Assembly (NCBI GenBank): GCA_001817915.1
Contig: MHJJ01000004.1
Location: 1 to 48,396, forward strand
Length of the DNA: 48,396 nt
DNA from: Candidatus Harrisonbacteria bacterium RIFCSPLOWO2_01_FULL_44_18
Lineage (GTDB): Bacteria; Patescibacteriota; Minisyncoccia; UBA6257; WO2-44-18
Direction of reading: 5' to 3'
Made by a program: the position numbers and the translations under genes. Below the pieces are notes generated by a model that was given only the letters and a program-made list of their open reading frames with translations, made no database searches and was not told where the DNA came from. Below, in pieces: positions 18,700-40,091 of the stretch. Within the stretch, counting starts at the first letter, position 1. Each line of letters opens with the position of its first letter.

Positions 18700-20324
18700 T
18701 TAAGCAAAAGATGATCGCCGACAGTTACTGTTACTTCTGATTCGAATAAAATGCCGCATTCATTGCCGGCTTCCACTTTTTGCGCGTCTTGTCTTGTTTT
18801 TTGGAGATTTATTATTTTGCCCTGCCCAATCGGCTTATCTTTTCTGATAATTTCAAGGATCGTGTTGTTTCTAATTTCTCCGGAGATGACTTTGCCGCCA
18901 AAAATCTGCCGCCTTGATCCCTTCGACGCAAGCCCTTTTTTGATTGTTCCGGTTTGCGGCTTGCCGAAAATTGCCAGCACTTCTAAATCTCCCAAAATCA
19001 CCGTTTTGCTCAACAAAGAAAGTTCCCGTTCAAGCGCCTTTATCAAATCATAAATAATGTCGGATTGAATTATTTTAACGCTTTGAGACTTGGCTAAATT
19101 TTCCGCCGCTTTGGCAACTCTGACTTTAAAGCCGACGATCGTCGCTTTTGTCGCGGTGGCCGATTTAACATCGCCATCGGAAATATCGCCGACTGATTCT
19201 TCGATAATTTCAATTTCCGCGTTGCTTGGCCGGGGGATATGTTTCATCACCCCCGAAAGCGCCTCCAATGAACCCGAAACATCGGCTTTCAAAATAATCC
19301 GGAAGATTGATAAATCCGTTTTGGCCGCCGTTGTCGCCGGCTTAACCGCCCTTTCTTTTATTATCTCTGGGGTAGTTTTCCCATTAAGCTGGCCGGCAAT
19401 AAATTCTTCTCCTACTTTTGGCAAAGATTCAAATCCTACGATTAGAACAGGCGCCGACGGCGTTGCTTTTTCTATTTTTTTGCCCAAAAAATTCTCCAGA
19501 ATTTTGATTTTACCCGTTGCTTTTCCCGAGGCGATATCATCGCCCAATTCTAAAGCTCCATCTTTTATAATCGCGGCCGCGGTGATGCCTCGACGGCTTT
19601 CAAGTTTTGCTTCCAAAATAAATCCTCTTGCTTGATTTCGCGGGTTGAAAGTTAAATTTTCCACGTCTGCCGTTAAAAGTATCAAATCCAAAAGTTCGTT
19701 GATCCCTTGTCCGGTTTTTGCCGAGATTGCTTGCCAGCTGACATTGCCGCCGTAGCCCTCCAAAAGTATGCCGGCTTGCGTCAGTTCGTTTTTTACTCTA
19801 TCTATATCGGCATTCGGCTTATCAATTTTGTTTATCGCGACAACAAAAGAAATTTTAGCTTCCTGAATTATTTTCAGCGCTTCTTTGGTTTGCGGTTTTA
19901 CGCCGTCATCGGCGGCCACAATCAAAATCGCGATGTCGGCAATTTTCGCGCCGCGAGCGCGCATTTTTGAAAATGCCTCATGGCCTGGAGTATCAATGAA
20001 AGTGATTTTGTGACCAGTCGCAAAATCACTTTCCGCGGAATTGCGCTGACTTGACGTGGAATTACGCTGAATTTTTTCTGCGTCAGTCTGCGCTTGCCCC
20101 CACACCAAATTTTGGTGTGGGGGTGAATCTGCGTTAGTCCGCGATTCACTCGGAGAATGAATGATCTCATAGGCGCCGATGGATTGCGTAATTCCTCCCG
20201 CTTCTTTGGCGGCAATAGCGGTTTTCCTGACATAATCCAATAGCGTCGTCTTGCCGTGATCAACATGACCCATTACCACCACTACCGGCGGACGTTTTAA
20301 ATTTTTAGAATTGTCATTCGCCAT
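18696..20324 (-). CDS. infB: Translation initiation factor IF-2, short form, with an insertion in the G domain
   Basis: 542 codons: the conserved G domain and domains II-IV, without the long N-terminal region of E. coli IF-2. G1 is [13 protein letters not shown] (about residues 16-28), followed by [11 protein letters not shown] (switch I), DTPGHEAF (G3), INKIDKPNA (NKxD) and SAKTGQGI (G5). Between GAYE and ITFIDTPGH, where E. coli has about 8 residues, this protein has about 55. They are encoded by repeat DNA (about 20010-20162) that contains a perfect CCCCCACACC/GGTGTGGGGG hairpin and CGCAGAC-type units. The frame stays open, so a functional protein with a surface loop near switch II is likely. 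Confidence 0.94.
20010..20162. repeat. Palindromic repeat cluster inside infB
   Basis: Holds the perfect palindrome at 20097-20123 (CCCCCACACCAAA and its complement), flanked by TCTGCGTTAGTCCGCG / CTGCGTCAGTCTGCG units of the family found in 23S introns. It encodes about 48 extra residues of IF-2. Confidence 0.82.
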
Positions 20325-26192: not shown

Positions 26193-27782
26193 ATGGAAAA
26201 AATGAGAATGAACACAGAATCAAAAAAAGAATTTTTAGAGGACCTAGAAAGGCGTTTTGTCGAAGAGGCGGAAATTAAAGAAGTGGCTGATCGGCTAACT
26301 AAGGCCGGCCATGAAGCTTTTTTGGTTGGCGGTTGCGTGCGTGATCTTTTGCTTGGCAAAGAACCTAAAGATTGGGATGTCGCCACCAATGCCGCGCCGG
26401 AGGAAATTCAGGGAATTTTTTCCGACAGCGTTTATGAAAATTCTTTTGGAACGGTGGCGGTAAAGACAAGATCCGAAGATCCAAGAAAAAAAATCGTTGA
26501 CGTCACCACATATCGATTAGAGGGAAAATATAGAGATAAACGCCATCCGGATGAAGTAAAATTCGCGAAAACTATTGATGAAGATTTGTCGCGCCGCGAT
26601 TTTACGATTAACGCGATGGCGTTTGAAGTAACGAGCCATAAACGTCGGGCCGAGGGACTAGTGGATCCGTTTGGCGGCGTCGAAGATCTGCGGAATAAAA
26701 TTATTCGAGCTGTCGGCGATTCCGAAGAGCGATTTGGAGAGGACGCGCTTCGTTTGATGAGAGCAATCCGTTTTTCCGCCCAACTTGGTTTTTCCATTGA
26801 AGGCGCGACCGCGGAGGCGATTAAGAACAAAGCCGGGCTTCTCGAATTTATCGCCAAAGAGCGCGTTCGCGATGAATTAGAAAAATTATTGATGACTCAA
26901 GACGCGGCTGAAGGAGTGCGCCGAATGCAAGAGTTGGGCATCCTCCATTATGTTTTGCCGGAGCTGGAGGAAGGCGCGGGGATGGAACAAAATAAACATC
27001 ATATCTATACAGTTTTTGAACATAATTTAAAGTCTCTAGATTACGCGGTGAAAAATGGATTTCCGCTTGAGTTGCGGCTTGCTTCTTTATTGCACGACGT
27101 TGGCAAACCACAAAGTCGAGTTTGGAAAGCTGATCCGCAGGGAGAAAAAACGCGCGAAGGTCGTAAGGGCGACTGGACTTTTTATCAGCACCAATATATT
27201 GGCGAGAAAATAGTTTTGGAGATGCTGGATCGGCTTCATTTTCCAAGAAAGATGATAGAGAAAATCGCGCTTTTGGTGCGCGAACATATGTTTGTCTATG
27301 ATCCGGAGATAATTACTGAAAAAGGAGTTAAGCAAGGAGTTACTGAAAGAGGCGTGCGGCGCCTTGTCCGCCGAGTCGGCTCGGAAAACATTGACGATTT
27401 ATTTTTGGTTCGAGAAGCGGATAGAATCGGTTCGGGCGTGAAAAAACCAGTGCCTTATCGGTTGAGGCATCTTAAGGCGATGATTGAAAAAGCTAAACAC
27501 GATCCGCTTAGCCCAAAGATGCTGAAAGTTAATGGAGAAGATGTGATGAAAAATCTTGGCATTGAACCCGGTCCGAAAGTTGGCTTTGTTTTGTCGGCTT
27601 TACTGGAAGAAGTTTTAGACGATCCGGAATTGAATAAAAAGGAGTTGTTATTGAAAAGAATTAAATTTTTAGGGAATCTTTCTGATAAAGAATTAGCTGA
27701 CATCGTTAAAAAGGCCAAGCAGGCCGTTGCTGAAGCGCAGGAGCGTATTGAAAAAGAGATTGAAAAAGCGTATTTTGTATGA
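26193..27782 (+). CDS. cca: CCA tRNA nucleotidyltransferase with HD domain
   Basis: 529 codons. The nucleotidyltransferase head has FLVGGCVRDLLLGKEPKDWDVATNA (about residues 46-70, catalytic DxD), RRDFTINAMAF and the RxxRF helix region RLMRAIRFSAQLGF. An HD domain follows (LRLASLLHDVGKP, about 290-302). It adds or repairs the 3' CCA of tRNAs. That fits this window: Gly, both Arg, Glu, Cys and Pro tRNAs lack an encoded CCA, while Lys, Leu, Ser and Ala have it. Poly(A) polymerase activity cannot be excluded by sequence alone. Confidence 0.92.
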   Translation: MEKMRMNTESKKEFLEDLERRFVEEAEIKEVADRLTKAGHEAFLVGGCVRDLLLGKEPKDWDVATNAAPEEIQGIFSDSVYENSFGTVAVKTRSEDPRKKIVDVTTYRLEGKYRDKRHPDEVKFAKTIDEDLSRRDFTINAMAFEVTSHKRRAEGLVDPFGGVEDLRNKIIRAVGDSEERFGEDALRLMRAIRFSAQLGFSIEGATAEAIKNKAGLLEFIAKERVRDELEKLLMTQDAAEGVRRMQELGILHYVLPELEEGAGMEQNKHHIYTVFEHNLKSLDYAVKNGFPLELRLASLLHDVGKPQSRVWKADPQGEKTREGRKGDWTFYQHQYIGEKIVLEMLDRLHFPRKMIEKIALLVREHMFVYDPEIITEKGVKQGVTERGVRRLVRRVGSENIDDLFLVREADRIGSGVKKPVPYRLRHLKAMIEKAKHDPLSPKMLKVNGEDVMKNLGIEPGPKVGFVLSALLEEVLDDPELNKKELLLKRIKFLGNLSDKELADIVKKAKQAVAEAQERIEKEIEKAYFV

Positions 27783-27821
27783 TATCTCTCGCCTGCGCGA
27801 CCTACTGGGACGGGCTTGCCC

Positions 27822-27852
27822 GCCATAGCTCGCTTCGGCGAGCGAAGGCGGG
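27822..27852. repeat. Palindrome GCTCGCTTCGGCGAGC with flanking CCCGCC/GGCGGG
   Basis: CCCGCCATAGCTCGCTTCGG and CGAGCGAAGGCGGG form a hairpin whose 3' end runs into the 5' end of the split tRNA-Pro-like sequence. A related copy is at about 40062-40091. Confidence 0.8.
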
Positions 27853-28028
27853 CTGTAGTATAACGGTAGTACGCGGGGCACGCCCCCACACCAAATATCG
27901 GGCCGTAGTGTAATGGTAGCACGAGTCCTTCGGGAGGATTTAGCCCGAGTTCAAATCTCGGCGGCCCGAATGATATTGGTGTGGGGGTGAAGGACTCCGT
28001 AGCCTGGGTTCAACTCCCAGCAACCCGA
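27849..28028 (+). other. Split tRNA-Pro-like sequence hosting another tRNA
   Basis: 5' part (27849-about 27881): acceptor CGGGCTG, D-arm GTATAACGGTAGTAC, then G and CGGGG. 3' part (about 27995-28028): CTCCG, TAGC, T-arm CTGGG-TTCAACT-CCCAG, acceptor CAACCCG and discriminator A. CGGGG/CTCCG can pair as an anticodon stem, and the acceptor has one C-A mismatch; C1-G72 and A73 suit tRNA-Pro. The anticodon loop is replaced by a CCCCCACACCAAATATC/GATATTGGTGTGGGGG hairpin that encloses a complete tRNA-Pro(CGG). No anticodon or U33 can be placed confidently, so the outer tRNA may be dead or need splicing. Confidence 0.6.
27899..27969 (+). tRNA. tRNA-Pro (CGG)
   Basis: Acceptor CGGGCCG/CGGCCCG (C1-G72) and discriminator A, D-arm GTGTAATGGTAGCAC, anticodon stem AGTCC/GGATT with loop TTCGGGA (anticodon CGG), T-arm CCGAG-TTCAAAT-CTCGG. 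No CCA is encoded. It is bounded by the 16-17-bp arms of a CCCCCACACC repeat. Confidence 0.88.
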
Positions 28029-31544: not shown

Positions 31545-31898
31545 CCGCCGAAGGCGGATCCGCCTCGGGCGGAAAAAAATCGTTTCTGAACGGCTTGTGA
31601 CGATTGTAGCTTGATAATAAAAATCCATCTCGAAAATATTTCTAATATTTCTGAGATTGGTTTTAATACGGCATTGCGAAGCGTTTGAGAAACGTTTCAA
31701 TAATACAAGTTTACAAATTTGCGATTTCCGTATAAGGGCATATGGTGGATGCCTTGGCATCAAGTGGCGATGAAGGACGTGGCGTAGCTGCGATAAGCCT
31801 CGGGGAGGTGCCTAGCAACCTTTGATCCGGGGATTTCCGAATGGGGAAACCCTCTGTGATAAACTCACAGAACCGTGGCTCACTATTGTTTATCACTC

Positions 31899-31974
31899 AT
31901 ACGAAAATACGAAAACCTACGAATTTACGAAAAACCAAATTTCGTACATTTGTAACATTTCGTACTTTCGTAAG
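31899..31974 (+). repeat. TACGAAA/TTTCGTA hairpin insertion in 23S domain I
   Basis: ATACGAAAATACGAAAACC on one side and TTTCGTACTTTCGTA on the other extend a small domain I helix. The same words form an in-frame insert in tsaD at about 11449-11550. Confidence 0.8.
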
Positions 31975-32054
31975 GGAGTGGCGAGCAGTGGCGAGTCACG
32001 GAGTATACCCGCTGAAGTGAAACATCTCAGTAAGCGGAGGAAAATAAAAAAATG

Positions 32055-32162
32055 TAGAAGCTGATTAACGCGGATTTTAAACTGTAGAGGCGGATTCACG
32101 CGGATTTAATTCCGCGCCGTTCCGCTTCTATAATTAATTGAATCTGCGCATATCTGCTTCTA
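32055..32162 (+). repeat. TAGAAG...CTTCTA hairpin insertion in 23S domain I
   Basis: About 108 nt with TAGAAGCTGATTAACGCGGA at one end and ATCTGCTTCTA at the other, inserted before the GTAGCGGCGAGCG landmark. Contains repeated ACGCGGATT units. Confidence 0.78.
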
Positions 32163-32165
32163 TGC

Positions 32166-32207
<42 letters not shown>

Positions 32208-32228
32208 TTGTCAGTGTTTCGCACTGAC

Positions 32229-32315
32229 CGCAGAAAAACGTGGAAAGAACGCAGAATAACGCAGAAGAACCAAAAATTCTGCGTGTGTCTGCGTAAAGTC
32301 TGCGTAAGTCCGCGG
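32229..32315 (+). repeat. CGCAGAA/TTCTGCG hairpin insertion in 23S domain I
   Basis: Multiple CGCAGAA words pair with ATTCTGCGTGTGTCTGCGT and AGTCTGCGTAAGTCCGCG. Same family as inserts in valS, infB and introns 1, 3, 6 and 7. Confidence 0.78.
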
Positions 32316-32660
32316 CCAACGCGGAGCGTTGGCAGGGGGTAGTAAGATTAACATGCTGTTAGCAATAATAAGGGAAAGTTATCAATCGATTTATTAGCAG
32401 AATCCATTGGAAAGTGGAGCCAAAGAGAGTGATAGCCTCGTATGCGAAAACAAATCGACTTTCTATTGTTAGTCTTGAGTACCTCGAGGCAAAAAAACTT
32501 TGAGGGAATCTTCCGGTACTATCCGGAAAGGCTAAATACACTTGATGACCGATAGTGAACTAGTACCGCGAGGGAAAGGTGAAAAGTACCCCGGAAGGGG
32601 GATGAAATAGAACCTGAAACCATATGCTTACAAGGACGCGAAGCTTGTGCTTTGCACAAG

Positions 32661-32800
32661 GAAATTCCAAACTCCAAATTCTAAATTCCAAACAATATTC
32701 AAGCTCTAATTTCAAAATTCCAAACGGATTTCCCGTTTTGAATTTGTTATTTTGGTCATTGTGATTTGTTTGTGATTTGGCGCTTGTGATTTGTGATTTT
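32661..32800 (+). repeat. AATTCCAAA-rich hairpin insertion in 23S domain II
   Basis: Runs of ATTCCAAACTCCAAATTC pair with GTGATTTG- and GAATTTG-rich sequence. The same family appears again at 34461-34586. Confidence 0.78.
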
Positions 32801-32924
32801 CTCGCGCAGAGCGCGAGTGACGCGGTGCCTATTGAAGAATGAGCCAACGAGTTATTTTGCATTGCGCGTCTAAGTCCCATTAAACGGGATGCAGGCACAG
32901 GGAAACCGAGTTTTAATAGAGCGC

Positions 32925-33080
32925 ATCGTTCGCTCCTCACTGCGTTCGTCGCTCACTTTACCAATTACGAATACTGACACGAATTAAGCTAATGGCTAAT
33001 AATGTTATTCGCCATTCGCCTAATTAGTTTTCATTTGTAATTAGTAGGCGAAGCGACGAGCATAGCGAGGAGTGAACGAA
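32925..33080 (+). repeat. 156-bp hairpin element, 23S copy 1
   Basis: Begins ATCGTTCGCTCCTCACTGCG and ends with the complementary GAGGAGTGAACGA; the centre has ACCAATTACGAATACTGACA and TTTTCATTTGTAATTAG. It caps a domain II helix (E. coli about 650). This copy differs from the other two at several bases. Confidence 0.9.
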
Positions 33081-33537
33081 ACGCAGTGCGAGATAGACCC
33101 GAAGCCAGAGCGAGCTTACCTTGGCCAGGATGAACCCGCCTTAATCGGCGGGGGAGGTCCGAACTGGTGGGTTGTGCAAAACCCTCGGATGAGCTGAGGT
33201 AAGAAGTGAAAAGCTAATCGAGCCTGGTAATAGCTGGTTCTCTCCGAAATAGCTTTCGGGCTAGCGCTCGCTAAAAATTTTCTAGGGGTAGAGCTACTGG
33301 TTGAGGTTGACAGGGCGAAAGCTCGCTTCCTCAGTCAAACTCCGAATACTAGAAAATACGGCGAGTAGTTAGACTGTGGGGGCTAAGCTCCATGGTCGCG
33401 AGGGAAAAAGCCCAGATCGTCGTCTAAGGTCCCTAAATTTTTGCTAAGTGTAAAAGGCAGTCATTAACCACAGACAGGCAGGAGGTTGGCTTAGAGGTAG
33501 CCATCCTTTAAAGAGTGTGTAACAACTCACTGCTCGA

Positions 33538-33693
33538 ATCGTTCGCTCCTCACTGCGTTCGTCACTCACTTTACCAATTACGAATACTGACACGAATTAA
33601 GCCAATGGCTAATAACGTTATTCGCCATTCGCCTAATTAGTTTTCATTTGTAATTAGTAGGTGAAGAGACGAGCATGGCGAGGAGCGAGCGAT
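33538..33693 (+). repeat. 156-bp hairpin element, 23S copy 2
   Basis: Nearly identical to copy 3 over the full length. It replaces the tip of the helix after ACTCACTG (E. coli about 1170). Confidence 0.92.
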
Positions 33694-33745
33694 GGTTAGT
33701 GGCGCCGAAAATGTACCGGGGCTAAGCAAGATACCGAAGACACGA

Positions 33746-33901
33746 ATCGTTCGCTCCTCACTGCGTTCGTCACTCACTTTACCAATTACGAATACTGACA
33801 CGAATTAAGCCAATGGCTAATAACGTTACTCGCCATTCGCCTAATTAGTTTTCATTTGTAATTAGTAGGTGAAGAGACGAGCATGGCGAGGAGCGAGCGG
33901 T
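33746..33901 (+). repeat. 156-bp hairpin element, 23S copy 3
   Basis: Differs from copy 2 by only a few bases (for example ACTCGCC versus ATTCGCC in the middle). It lies in the next helix (E. coli about 1215-1230), 52 nt after copy 2. Confidence 0.92.
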
Positions 33902-34460
33902 GGTAGGAGAGCATCCCAAACTGCGTTGAAGGTTACGACGCGAGTCGGACTGGAGTGTTTGGGAGGGAGAATGTTGGCATGAGTAACCGCAAATTTAGTG
34001 AGAAACTAGATCCCCGAAAATCCAAGGTTTCCGTGGCAATGGCAATCAACCACGGGTTAGGCGATCCTAAGGCAATGGCGAGAGCCGCAGCCGATGGACA
34101 GCCGGTTAATATTCCGGCCCTTCTGAAACATTCGATGGGGTGACGGAGGAAATAAGATTGAGCGCCTTAGTGGTTTGGCGTCGTCGGTCATCAGAAATGA
34201 TGCTCAGGAAAATCCGGGCGTCTGCTTTTAATGGCAAATTTCGCGGACCGCCGTAAGGTTAAGTTTTTACTTAACTAATTCAATCGAAGAGCCTTCCGAG
34301 AAAAACCTCTAAGGTTAGTGTTTTAGAAATCGTACCGTAAACCGACACAGGTGGGTGAGGCGAGAAGCCTCAGGGGAACGAGTGATTCTTCGTTAAGGAA
34401 CTCGGCAAAAAAGCGGCCGTAAGTTCGCGATAAGGCCTGCCCAACCAATGCTTCGCATTG

Positions 34461-34586
34461 GGAATTCCAAATTACAAATCCCAAATCACAAACAAATTTG
34501 AAATTCCAATTTTCAAATTCAAAACGTTTTGAATTTAGAATTTTGGTTATTAGATATTGTTTGTAATTTGGCGCTTGGGATTTGGT
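34461..34586 (+). repeat. AATTCCAAATTACAAATC hairpin insertion in 23S domain IV
   Basis: GGAATTCCAAATTACAAATC and AAATCACAAACAAATTTG pair with TTTGTAATTTGGCGCTTGGG. It extends the helix near E. coli 1730. Second member of the family at 32661. Confidence 0.8.
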
Positions 34587-34807
34587 GCTTCCACTGCGGA
34601 GCAGTGGTTTGGGCTGCAACAAAAGTATCTCTGGCGACTGTTTACCAAAAACACAGCTCCCTGCTAACTCGCAAGAGGATGTATAGGGGGTGACGCCTGA
34701 CCGATGCGAGAAGGTTAACGGTGCCGGTACTCGATATTGTAAAATGTTGAGCGCTGAGTGCCCGAAGCCCTCGTCAATGTCGGCAGTAACTATAACTGTC
34801 CAAAGGT

Positions 34808-35080
34808 AGAAATAGCGCGCTGCCTTTGTAAAATCTGACTGTATCGGTGAACATCCCGCTATGGCGGGACAATACCGAGGCAACCCCGACGGAATGTTGG
34901 GGGAGTCCGTAGAGACTATACGTCAGACCGTAGTACATAAAGCCTGATGTGCTCGGAAGATATAGTCCGACCTCCGTGGCAACACGGAGAGATAGACAGA
35001 AATGTTCTATCCACGTAACAAATTTCGCGAAGTCCGCAAAAGTCAGCGGAGTCCGCGTTTGTTACGAAGTAACATATTTG
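34808..35080 (+). ncRNA. Group I intron 1 (23S site U1931)
   Basis: 273 nt. The 5' exon CAAAGGT pairs with the internal guide GCCTTTG, leaving the U.G pair at the splice site. Core elements: AATACCGAGG (Q-like), CGTAGAGACTATACG (R) and AAGATATAGTCCG (S, P7 with GACT). The last base is G (35080), and the 3' exon AGCGCAATTCC matches E. coli AGCGAAAUUCC. No ORF. A GTCCGC/GCGGAC-type repeat hairpin (35015-35073) fills the last peripheral arm. Confidence 0.9.
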
Positions 35081-35100
35081 AGCGCAATTCCTTTTCAGGT

Positions 35101-35814
35101 AAGAGAACTTGCCTGAATTCGCCGTGAGGTGAATTAAAAAGTCGGCTTATAACGGTGAAGTCCATTTTGTGATATAATTTACCAATGGATAATACCGTGG
35201 GAAGTTTCCGCCAGTTGGCGAATAACCCCGTAACGACTGAGTCCCGCAAAGCGGGACGAAATGGCCCTGATTTATCAGGCCATTACACGCCGACCTCTTT
35301 ATTGAGGGAAACCAGAAACATTCCAGAATATATTACTGGGTATGTTGATGGTGAAGGATGTTTTACGGTTACCTTTAATCAAAAATTAAAGGCAAATTTA
35401 GGATGGGAAATGAAACCAAGTTTTTCGGTAAGCCAGAATGAGGACAAGCGTCAAGTTCTGGATATTATTAGAGAATATTTTGGTTGTGGATATATCCGTC
35501 GTGACTATGCAGATAAAACAGTAAAGTTTGAAGTGCGAGATCACAATGATCTTATGACGAAAATTATTCCCCATTTTGAAAAGTTTCCTTTGCTTTCTAA
35601 AAAGCAAAAAGATTTTGAGCTATTCAAAAAAATCTGCAAAATTGTAGATCAAAAAATTCATCTTACCAAAGAAGGATTTATTGAAATTCTTAATCTTGCA
35701 TACTCAATGAATGGTTCAGGAAAGCGGAGGAGGGCAAAAGAAACAATCATAAAACTACTTCAATAAAGATGAAGATATAGTCTGATACTTATCGTAAGAT
35801 AAGCAAACATTTAG
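35101..35814 (+). ncRNA. Group I intron 2 (23S site U1951) encoding a LAGLIDADG endonuclease
   Basis: 714 nt. The 5' exon TCAGGT pairs with guide GCCTGA (U.G at the junction). AATACCGTGGGAAG, CCCCGTAACGACTGAG and AAGATATAGTCTG give the core; final G at 35814, 3' exon AAGTTCTGAAG. The endonuclease ORF lies between R and S, in the P8 region. Only 20 nt of exon separate it from intron 1. Confidence 0.92.
35185..35766 (+). CDS. LAGLIDADG homing endonuclease of intron 2
   Basis: Up to 193 codons; a TTG at 35302 (LRETRNIPEYITGYVDGEGC...) is a more likely start because the upstream part is intron core. One LAGLIDADG motif, ITGYVDGEGCFTV, with catalytic Asp/Glu retained, then KPSFSVSQNEDKRQVLDII, GCGYIRRD and HFEKFPLLSKKQKDFELF, typical of single-motif enzymes that act as homodimers. 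The frame is intact, so the intron may still be mobile. It would cut intron-less 23S alleles near E. coli 1951. Confidence 0.9.
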   Translation: MDNTVGSFRQLANNPVTTESRKAGRNGPDLSGHYTPTSLLRETRNIPEYITGYVDGEGCFTVTFNQKLKANLGWEMKPSFSVSQNEDKRQVLDIIREYFGCGYIRRDYADKTVKFEVRDHNDLMTKIIPHFEKFPLLSKKQKDFELFKKICKIVDQKIHLTKEGFIEILNLAYSMNGSGKRRRAKETIIKLLQ

Positions 35815-36311
35815 AAGTTCTGAAGCGCACGAATGGCGTAACGATCGGAGAACTGTCTCAACGAAGAGCTCGGTGAAAATGCGATTCCCGTGAAGACGCG
35901 GGATACCTGCAGCAAGACGAAAAGACCCCGGGAGCTTTACTGCAACTTGATATTGGCTTTAAAACTTGGATGCGTAGCGTAGTGGGTAGGGGATGAAGTT
36001 CCGCTTTTGGGCGGGATGGACCCGACAATGAAACACCCATCTTCCGAGTTTTAAAATCTAACCTATCCGGCAAAAACGGATCGGGACAGTGTCTGGCGGG
36101 CAGTTTAAATGGGGCGTTTTCCTCCAAAAAAGTAACGGAGGAGTTTATTAAGGTTGGCTTAGTCCCGATGGAAACGGGACTGGACGCGTAAAGGCACAAG
36201 CCAGCTTAACTGCAAGACTGACAAGTCGCGCAGATGCGAAAGCAGAACTTAGTGACCCGACCATTCTTTATAGAAAGGTGGGAGACAACGGCTAAAAGTT
36301 ACCCCGGGGAT

Positions 36312-36744
36312 GGATCCTGAAAAAAGGATCAGTTGTCCCGTTCCGCAGTAATGCGGAACAAGATTACGGCTTATAACGGTGAACCCAAAATTGGTCTTTC
36401 CTCGTTTTGCGAGGTTCTCGATTTTGGCAATACCGTGGGAAGCGAGCACATAAAACATTATGCGCTTCGCCTCGTAACGACTGAATTCTATTTAGATTAT
36501 TTTAAATAGATGAAGATAGCAGCTTTTTTGTTGCTATAATACGCCGTCCCCTGTTAAATAATTTCGCCAAAGGCGAAATTGCCGCAAAGCGGCATTTAAC
36601 AGGGTGAAGATATAGTCTAATTGTGTTACTTCGTAACACCGCGGAACCACGCGGAAGATTACGCGGAATGTCGCAGAAAATAATTCTGCGTTAGTCTGCG
36701 TGAAGTCTGCGTAAGTCCGCGCTGTGAGCGAAGCGAACAGATTG
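36312..36744 (+). ncRNA. Group I intron 3 (23S site U2449)
   Basis: 433 nt. The 5' exon GGGGAT pairs with guide GTCCC after a GGATCCT/AGGATC loop. Core: TAACGGTGAACCC, AATACCGTGGGAAG, CTCGTAACGACTGA and AAGATATAGTC. Final G at 36744 and 3' exon AACAGGCTGG. It carries a TTAACAGGGT/CCCTGTTAA hairpin and a CGCAGAA-type repeat, but no ORF. Confidence 0.9.
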
Positions 36745-39911: not shown

Positions 39912-39975
39912 CTTTATTTTGAATACAACATTTTCCAATCATCTTATGAGCCCGAAATTCTCTTTTCCTTCAACC

Positions 39976-40091
39976 CCACACTAAACTCGTTTAGTGTGGG
40001 GTCAACCCGTTTTCAGCTCTGCCTGTCTGCCTGCCGGCAGGCAGGCCTAGTCCCTTGCTTGCTCGCCGAAGCTTGAAGAGCGAAGGCGGGG
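39976..40091. repeat. Three dispersed palindromes in a row
   Basis: CCCCACACTAAA/TTTAGTGTGGGG (39976-40003, relative of the infB and tRNA-Pro repeats), GCCTGCCTGCCGG-type (40023-40048) and CTCGCCGAAGC...GCGAAGGCGGGG (40062-40091). Gap 39912-40214 otherwise holds only a terminator and a promoter-like AT stretch. Confidence 0.8.

Follow-up and report, generated by a model that had tools for sequence, protein, structure and literature searches.

A whole tRNA-Pro(CGG) gene nested within the anticodon loop of its resident counterpart: a probable mobile replacement cassette in Patescibacteria

Why does a complete tRNA gene lie within the anticodon loop of another, and which of the two serves the cell? 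The question is raised by a locus at positions 27849–28028 of the window (the whole stretch of DNA analysed, 48,396 nt), which belongs to a genome of 752 kb in 14 contigs that is 96.8% complete. The inner gene, a complete tRNA-Pro(CGG) on the forward strand (27899–27969) and the presumed functional replacement, sits in the anticodon loop of a second tRNA-Pro, with inverted-repeat arms on either side. Rfam (62.4 bits), ARAGORN and the predicted fold all bear out an earlier note on this DNA, which had placed a complete tRNA-Pro(CGG) between repeat arms in an outer loop.

The outer gene, also on the forward strand, is split in two. Its 5′ half (27849–27878), identified by pairing, comprises the acceptor strand CGGGCTG (27849–27855), the D-arm (27858–27872) and the 5′ anticodon strand CGGGG (27874–27878). 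The 3′ half (27992–28028) holds nt 36–38 (GGA), the strand CTCCG (27995–27999), the T-arm CTGGG-TTCAACT-CCCAG (28004–28020), the acceptor strand CAACCCG (28021–28027) and the discriminator A. Six of seven acceptor pairs form, with a C5/A68 mismatch. Between the halves lie, in order and on the same strand, the tetranucleotide CACG (27879–27882), which takes the place of anticodon-loop nt 32–35 and forms the left end of the insert; the left arm CCCCCACACCAAATAT (27883–27898), whose family recurs in infB and in other nested loci; the inner tRNA; the right arm ATATTGGTGTGGGGG (27973–27987); and TGAA (27988–27991), a conserved right end that comes after the arm in infB and many nested loci as well. 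No ORF is present between the outer halves, and no target-site duplication was identified at the insertion. The predicted RNA fold of the whole 180 nt matches this description (−84.3 kcal/mol, z −4.7, none of 200 shuffles as stable; z −3.5 when folded as DNA): the anticodon stem runs on into the arms through an asymmetric internal loop, CACG/TGAAGGA. Pairing and fold thus agree on the outer acceptor, D- and T-arms that the earlier note had recognised. Another palindrome, CCCGCC..GGCGGG (window 27810–27853), abuts the outer tRNA and overlaps its first five acceptor bases; the tRNA-Pro of one relative (G002) is preceded by a similar repeat.

The identity of the outer gene emerges from its neighbourhood. 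Immediately upstream lies cca, encoding tRNA nucleotidyltransferase (26193–27782, forward strand; Pfam PF01743/PF12627), a syntenic neighbour that tRNA-Pro(CGG) often follows in genomes of the order. Among 30 cca loci from relatives, nine have tRNA-Pro(CGG) directly downstream. In five of these nine the gene is intact (G001, G002, G004 and G005, of the same family as the window genome, plus G053); in the other four it is nested (the window genome, G000, with G013, G052 and G075). The arms are different in each of the four, so that the insertions are separate events. At the same place, the intact gene of G004 reads CGGGG TTCGGGA CTCCG, exactly the anticodon stem of the outer halves, and the earlier suggestion that CGGGG/CTCCG is an anticodon stem is in this way confirmed independently. 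Compared with the intact relatives, the window has CACG for TTCG at nt 32–35, then the arms with the inner tRNA, then TGAA, and resumes the resident sequence from nt 36 (GGA CTCCG...). The assignment of CACG to the insert was made against G004, G001, G002 and G005, which have TTCG there, and against four nested loci (L079, L100, L112 and L116). The outer halves are 70–79% identical to the same-family Pro(CGG) orthologs and 88% identical to that of G029. Synteny and sequence both identify the outer gene as the tRNA-Pro(CGG) that resides behind cca and has been inherited vertically. The idea that it might be the missing Pro(GGG) was discarded, relatives carrying CGG at the same place. As for other tRNA-Pro genes in the genome, which the earlier note had proposed to look for, Pro(TGG) is intact at C9:1608 and no Pro(GGG) was found; the outer gene is a former CGG. 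Elsewhere in the window, the tRNA-Arg at 670–742 has the anticodon GCG, not ACG.

The inner gene has another affiliation. With the cca-linked Pro(CGG) of G115, whose genome belongs to another family, it shares 99% identity, but with Pro(CGG) genes from its own family only 69–70%, and it is therefore probably foreign. At a further locus, L097 (identical with the site in G258), the left arm is related to that of the window cassette (15 of 19 positions) and the inner tRNA matches the window's at 67 of 71 positions, inside a different outer tRNA; this is as expected if arm and tRNA travel together. The arms also occur without cargo, as the earlier note had observed in infB and near 39976. The arm 10-mer forms perfect inverted pairs both around the tRNA and in infB (20097–20123), and with up to one mismatch it has five matches against 0.8 expected; the second solo copy, real but diverged, is intergenic (39974–40001, CCCCACACTAAAC...). 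The infB palindrome (window 20080–20140) is in frame within the GTPase domain and resembles a protein-coding palindromic element.

Collectively, these observations make it probable that 27879–27991 is a mobile cassette that destroyed the resident tRNA-Pro(CGG) but brought a substitute with the same anticodon. In the cassette, a complete tRNA-Pro(CGG) gene would be framed by the two inverted-repeat arms, and the resident copy behind cca would have been entered at its anticodon loop. The cell would survive because the cassette brings in an intact tRNA with the same anticodon, and the inner copy would now do the work; we infer that it alone is expressed and charged.

Could the arrangement have arisen in place, with no mobile cassette, by replication slippage or template switching at a palindrome already present in the tRNA gene, which placed a copy of the resident tRNA, or of a paralogue, at the tip of the hairpin? 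Some nests do look local. Over their first 25 nt, the inner and the outer tRNA match at 92% or more in about a third of nests (16 of 53), with L082 as an example of near-identity, and inner/outer likeness is 0.855 for same-locus pairs against 0.799 for permuted pairs. In addition, the arms vary by locus and palindromes also enter other outer loops. These nests resemble local copies rather than foreign imports, and local copying may also occur. Against it as the explanation for the window stand the foreign type of the inner tRNA, the common arm and inner tRNA with different outer tRNAs in L097/G258 and the window genome, and the expectation that a lone palindrome, in a tRNA gene present only once, would already have killed the cell by the time a copy could arrive. 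An origin in place is thus rather unlikely. A general rule by which the inner tRNA would be immune through a different anticodon stem was also considered and rejected, the stems being identical in L082 and others.

If a cassette was inserted, the outer gene may be dead or may be rescued at the RNA level. In the latter case the insert would act like an intron: the inner tRNA would be cut out and the outer halves joined, one transcript giving two functional tRNAs. The state of the outer halves lends this some appeal. An outer 3′ half is kept in 34 of 53 Pro/Gly loci, and in these the acceptors form on average 6.62 of 7 pairs against 5.09 with permuted partners (maximum 5.71 in 5,000), meaning that the two halves belong together; 25 of the 34 acceptors are perfect. 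Outer stems have kept more of their pairing than is expected of a gene that died long ago; this counts against the cassette reading, under which the insertions would have to be recent. Joining would also restore a perfect loop, ATGG + GGT, in five Pro(GGG) nests (L075, L088, L099, L103 and L117), and in the predicted fold of the precursor the arms extend the anticodon stem. Other observations speak against splicing. Outer and inner tRNAs have the same anticodon, and the outer loop of the window, if joined, would read CACGGGA, without U33. No recognisable outer 3′ half is left in 19 of the 53 loci, and further palindromes fill the outer T-loop in L090, L106, L117, L118 and L125 and the outer variable loop in L099, L103 and L104. 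At 27849–28028, the Rfam model Intron_gpI gives no match at gathering thresholds, although the same model matches the 23S rRNA and tRNA-Phe introns, and a bulge-helix-bulge (3-nt bulge, 4-bp helix, 3-nt bulge) is absent at the exon junctions of the predicted fold. Finally, the interrupted tRNA-Phe, tRNA-Thr(GGT) and tRNA-Asn of the same genome (L136, L142 and L207) carry group I introns, recognised for Phe by Rfam and for Thr and Asn by the ARAGORN intron structure and manual reading. Missing tRNAs of the genome were considered as proof that palindromic inserts are spliced, a reading rejected because Asn, Phe and Thr-GGT have these introns. An ordinary solution to the interruption of essential tRNAs therefore exists and is unused by the nests. 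Splicing is thus very unlikely, and the outer tRNA is probably dead, given the lack of U33, the anticodon that duplicates that of the inner gene and the loss of T-loops or 3′ halves at other loci. The earlier note had left three options, a repeat with a tRNA cassette, a dead outer tRNA and one that depends on excision of the insert; the first two are supported, as two sides of one event, the former backed by the intact resident gene in relatives, the foreign inner tRNA and recurrence with different arms, and the third is not supported. Within the window, a group I intron (34726–34989) and a LAGLIDADG endonuclease ORF (35185–35766) lie within the 23S rRNA gene, whose length is 4.7 kb (31722–36446).

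The arrangement is not confined to one genome. A strict pattern (a tRNA 5′ half followed by a second tRNA start within 22–48 nt), scanned over 84,980 bacterial and archaeal species, returned 55 loci, of which 54 are tRNA-in-tRNA, essentially all in Patescibacteria: five are Gly(CCC)-in-Gly and the remainder Pro-in-Pro, and the 55th is a chance match in Lachnospiraceae. At the level of the order, 15 of 244 genomes match, a lower bound given the strictness of the pattern, and the reversed-pattern control gives none. In the window genome itself, nests or relics are also found around Val-CAC (twice nested), Arg-CCT, Thr-CGT and Ala-TGC, and 5′ halves upstream of Pro-TGG, Gln-TTG, Ser-TGA and Gly-CCC. 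The Val locus (L132, G000:C13:16100-17400, minus strand) contains Val-CAC in a Val-like tRNA, itself in a third, Val(CAC)-like, tRNA, and each has palindromic arms of its own. Arms differ among nested loci. Inner and outer anticodons agree wherever the outer one is readable, as GGG/GGG (L073, L075, L088, L092, L099, L103, L109, L117 and L121), TGG/TGG (L084, L101 and L118), CGG/CGG (L125) and, in Gly nests, CCC/CCC. Since every genome is a metagenome assembly, an assembly or binning artefact had to be considered; dozens of loci are independent and differ in sequence, their arms pair and synteny is conserved, all of which makes it extremely improbable. A search of openly accessible papers, including work on Patescibacteria, on GIY-YIG genes in Parcubacteria and on introns in CPR bacteria, turned up no account of one tRNA gene lying within another, and the arrangement does not appear to have been described, a novelty that is provisional.

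Nests are diverse in form. A second class of Pro nests (L071, L074, L077, L084, L101, L106, L108 and L114) has GGTTGA../..TCAAC arms, after which come two more conserved hairpins and then the remaining outer sequence; this may be a structured RNA. A conserved ribozyme was considered for the inserts with extra hairpins (L074 and L084); no Rfam family was found in the small loci scanned. In L090, L092 and L109, the nest is inserted after nt 25/26, past the D-arm and ahead of the anticodon arm, and leaves the outer anticodon loop ATGGGGT; the outer anticodon arm of L109 is fully paired.

What moves such cassettes? Several loci point to small genes for GIY-YIG endonucleases. At Gly-CCC of the window genome, a GIY-YIG gene comes after two Gly 5′ halves in a row, and its end overlaps the intact Gly-CCC. 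The same order is found in G009, from another family, with a GIY-YIG protein 64% identical, and in G098 a Thr 5′ half, a GIY-YIG gene and an intact Thr-CGT follow one another. Tight flanking by inverted repeats is seen for 13 of 20 GIY-YIG genes against 4 of 65 control windows. Of 12 GIY-YIG arms, 10 have an 8-mer in common with arms around nested tRNAs, against 1.2 expected, in families of which solo palindromes also exist. One GIY-YIG gene of the window genome has arms ATCCCGCACATA.../...TATGTGCGGGAT, like those around its Gln-TTG. Compact GIY-YIG elements with 14–21 bp inverted repeats (L210, L217, L219, L222, L226, L231, L232 and L233) have a right arm that overlaps or abuts the ORF end, and several lie directly behind an upstream gene. 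The shared arm sequences are suggestive of a link between nested-tRNA cassettes and GIY-YIG elements, and may instead reflect a shared repeat pool. The simplest reading of these sequences is one pool of inverted-repeat elements whose cargo may be an endonuclease gene, a tRNA or nothing.

A different mobiliser would be a Y1 (RAYT) transposase, the arms being REP-type hairpins that captured a tRNA and the GIY-YIG proteins being uninvolved. Three Y1-transposase genes are present in the window genome and the family occurs in 31 of 121 relatives; one gene (L151, G000:C10:16730) is embedded in an array of GATTTCGGAAACC-type palindromes. However, the palindromes at the three genes (L149–L151) belong to other families (GATTTCGG.., GAGGTTCAACCTC), the reason for which the Y1 transposase was set aside as mobiliser, most relatives lack the gene, and the arm families match the flanks of GIY-YIG genes instead. 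The Y1 reading is accordingly improbable.

It is tempting to propose, at about even confidence, that the cassettes are short ORF-less derivatives of GIY-YIG-encoding inverted-repeat elements, copied in by repair of an endonuclease cut in a homing-like process; the window cassette has no ORF and palindromes of these families also occur without a tRNA, both of which count against it. Where a tRNA gene is cut in its anticodon loop, repair would copy in a cassette with a complete tRNA of the same anticodon. Selection would retain only events that restore the lost tRNA, which would account for the anticodon shared by inner and outer genes, and repeated rounds would build matryoshka loci. Host function would be kept through the carried replacement gene, not by splicing. 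More broadly, and with somewhat less than even confidence, homing-type selfish elements of Patescibacteria may cut anticodon loops and install full tRNAs of the same anticodon for many isotypes, giving rise to nested loci and horizontal tRNA exchange.

If true, mobile DNA in an essential RNA gene would have a second solution besides self-splicing introns, namely a whole substitute gene. This would explain horizontal tRNA-gene replacement in a huge uncultured bacterial group. It would also account for the many palindromes and small GIY-YIG genes that these reduced genomes contain, and for puzzling annotations in which tRNAs seem to be absent, duplicated or in fragments. What the GIY-YIG enzymes should target is, moreover, clearly predicted and open to tests in vitro.

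Several known systems share traits with the nested cassette. Rickettsia palindromic elements and REP/RAYT elements place palindromes in frame in protein genes, as in the infB copy; they are not known to carry a tRNA. Integrative elements that use tRNA genes as attachment sites restore the interrupted tRNA with a carried fragment. They are recombinase-mediated, measure kilobases and restore one half, whereas the cassette places a complete gene between both halves of a 180 bp locus. Mitochondrial repetitive or double hairpin elements are likewise short mobile palindromes that enter RNA genes and intergenic DNA (PMC2800124); unlike the nested cassette, they are not known to carry a tRNA. Group I introns in bacterial tRNAs use the same insertion point, the anticodon loop, often with homing endonucleases involved (PMC3984707); in contrast, the nested insert has no ribozyme core, and a substitute gene rather than splicing would keep the function.

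By analogy, the nested cassette works most like the endonuclease-linked gene replacement of fungal mitochondria, where mobile endonuclease ORFs, of the LAGLIDADG or GIY-YIG type, replace part of the gene that they enter (atp6 in Allomyces macrogynus; atp6, atp9, cox2 and nad3 in Glomus) (PMC3630166). In both, an essential gene is entered, a foreign replacement is carried in and the native relic still groups with close relatives; at the window locus, too, a foreign replacement and a displaced native segment are found together at a conserved locus. The fungal elements swap only the 3′ part of a protein gene (PMC3630166), whereas the cassette carries a whole tRNA gene, in a bacterium and between inverted-repeat arms. 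It also differs in having a short form without an endonuclease ORF, the ORF being present at Gly-CCC (G000 and G009) and at Thr-CGT (G098).
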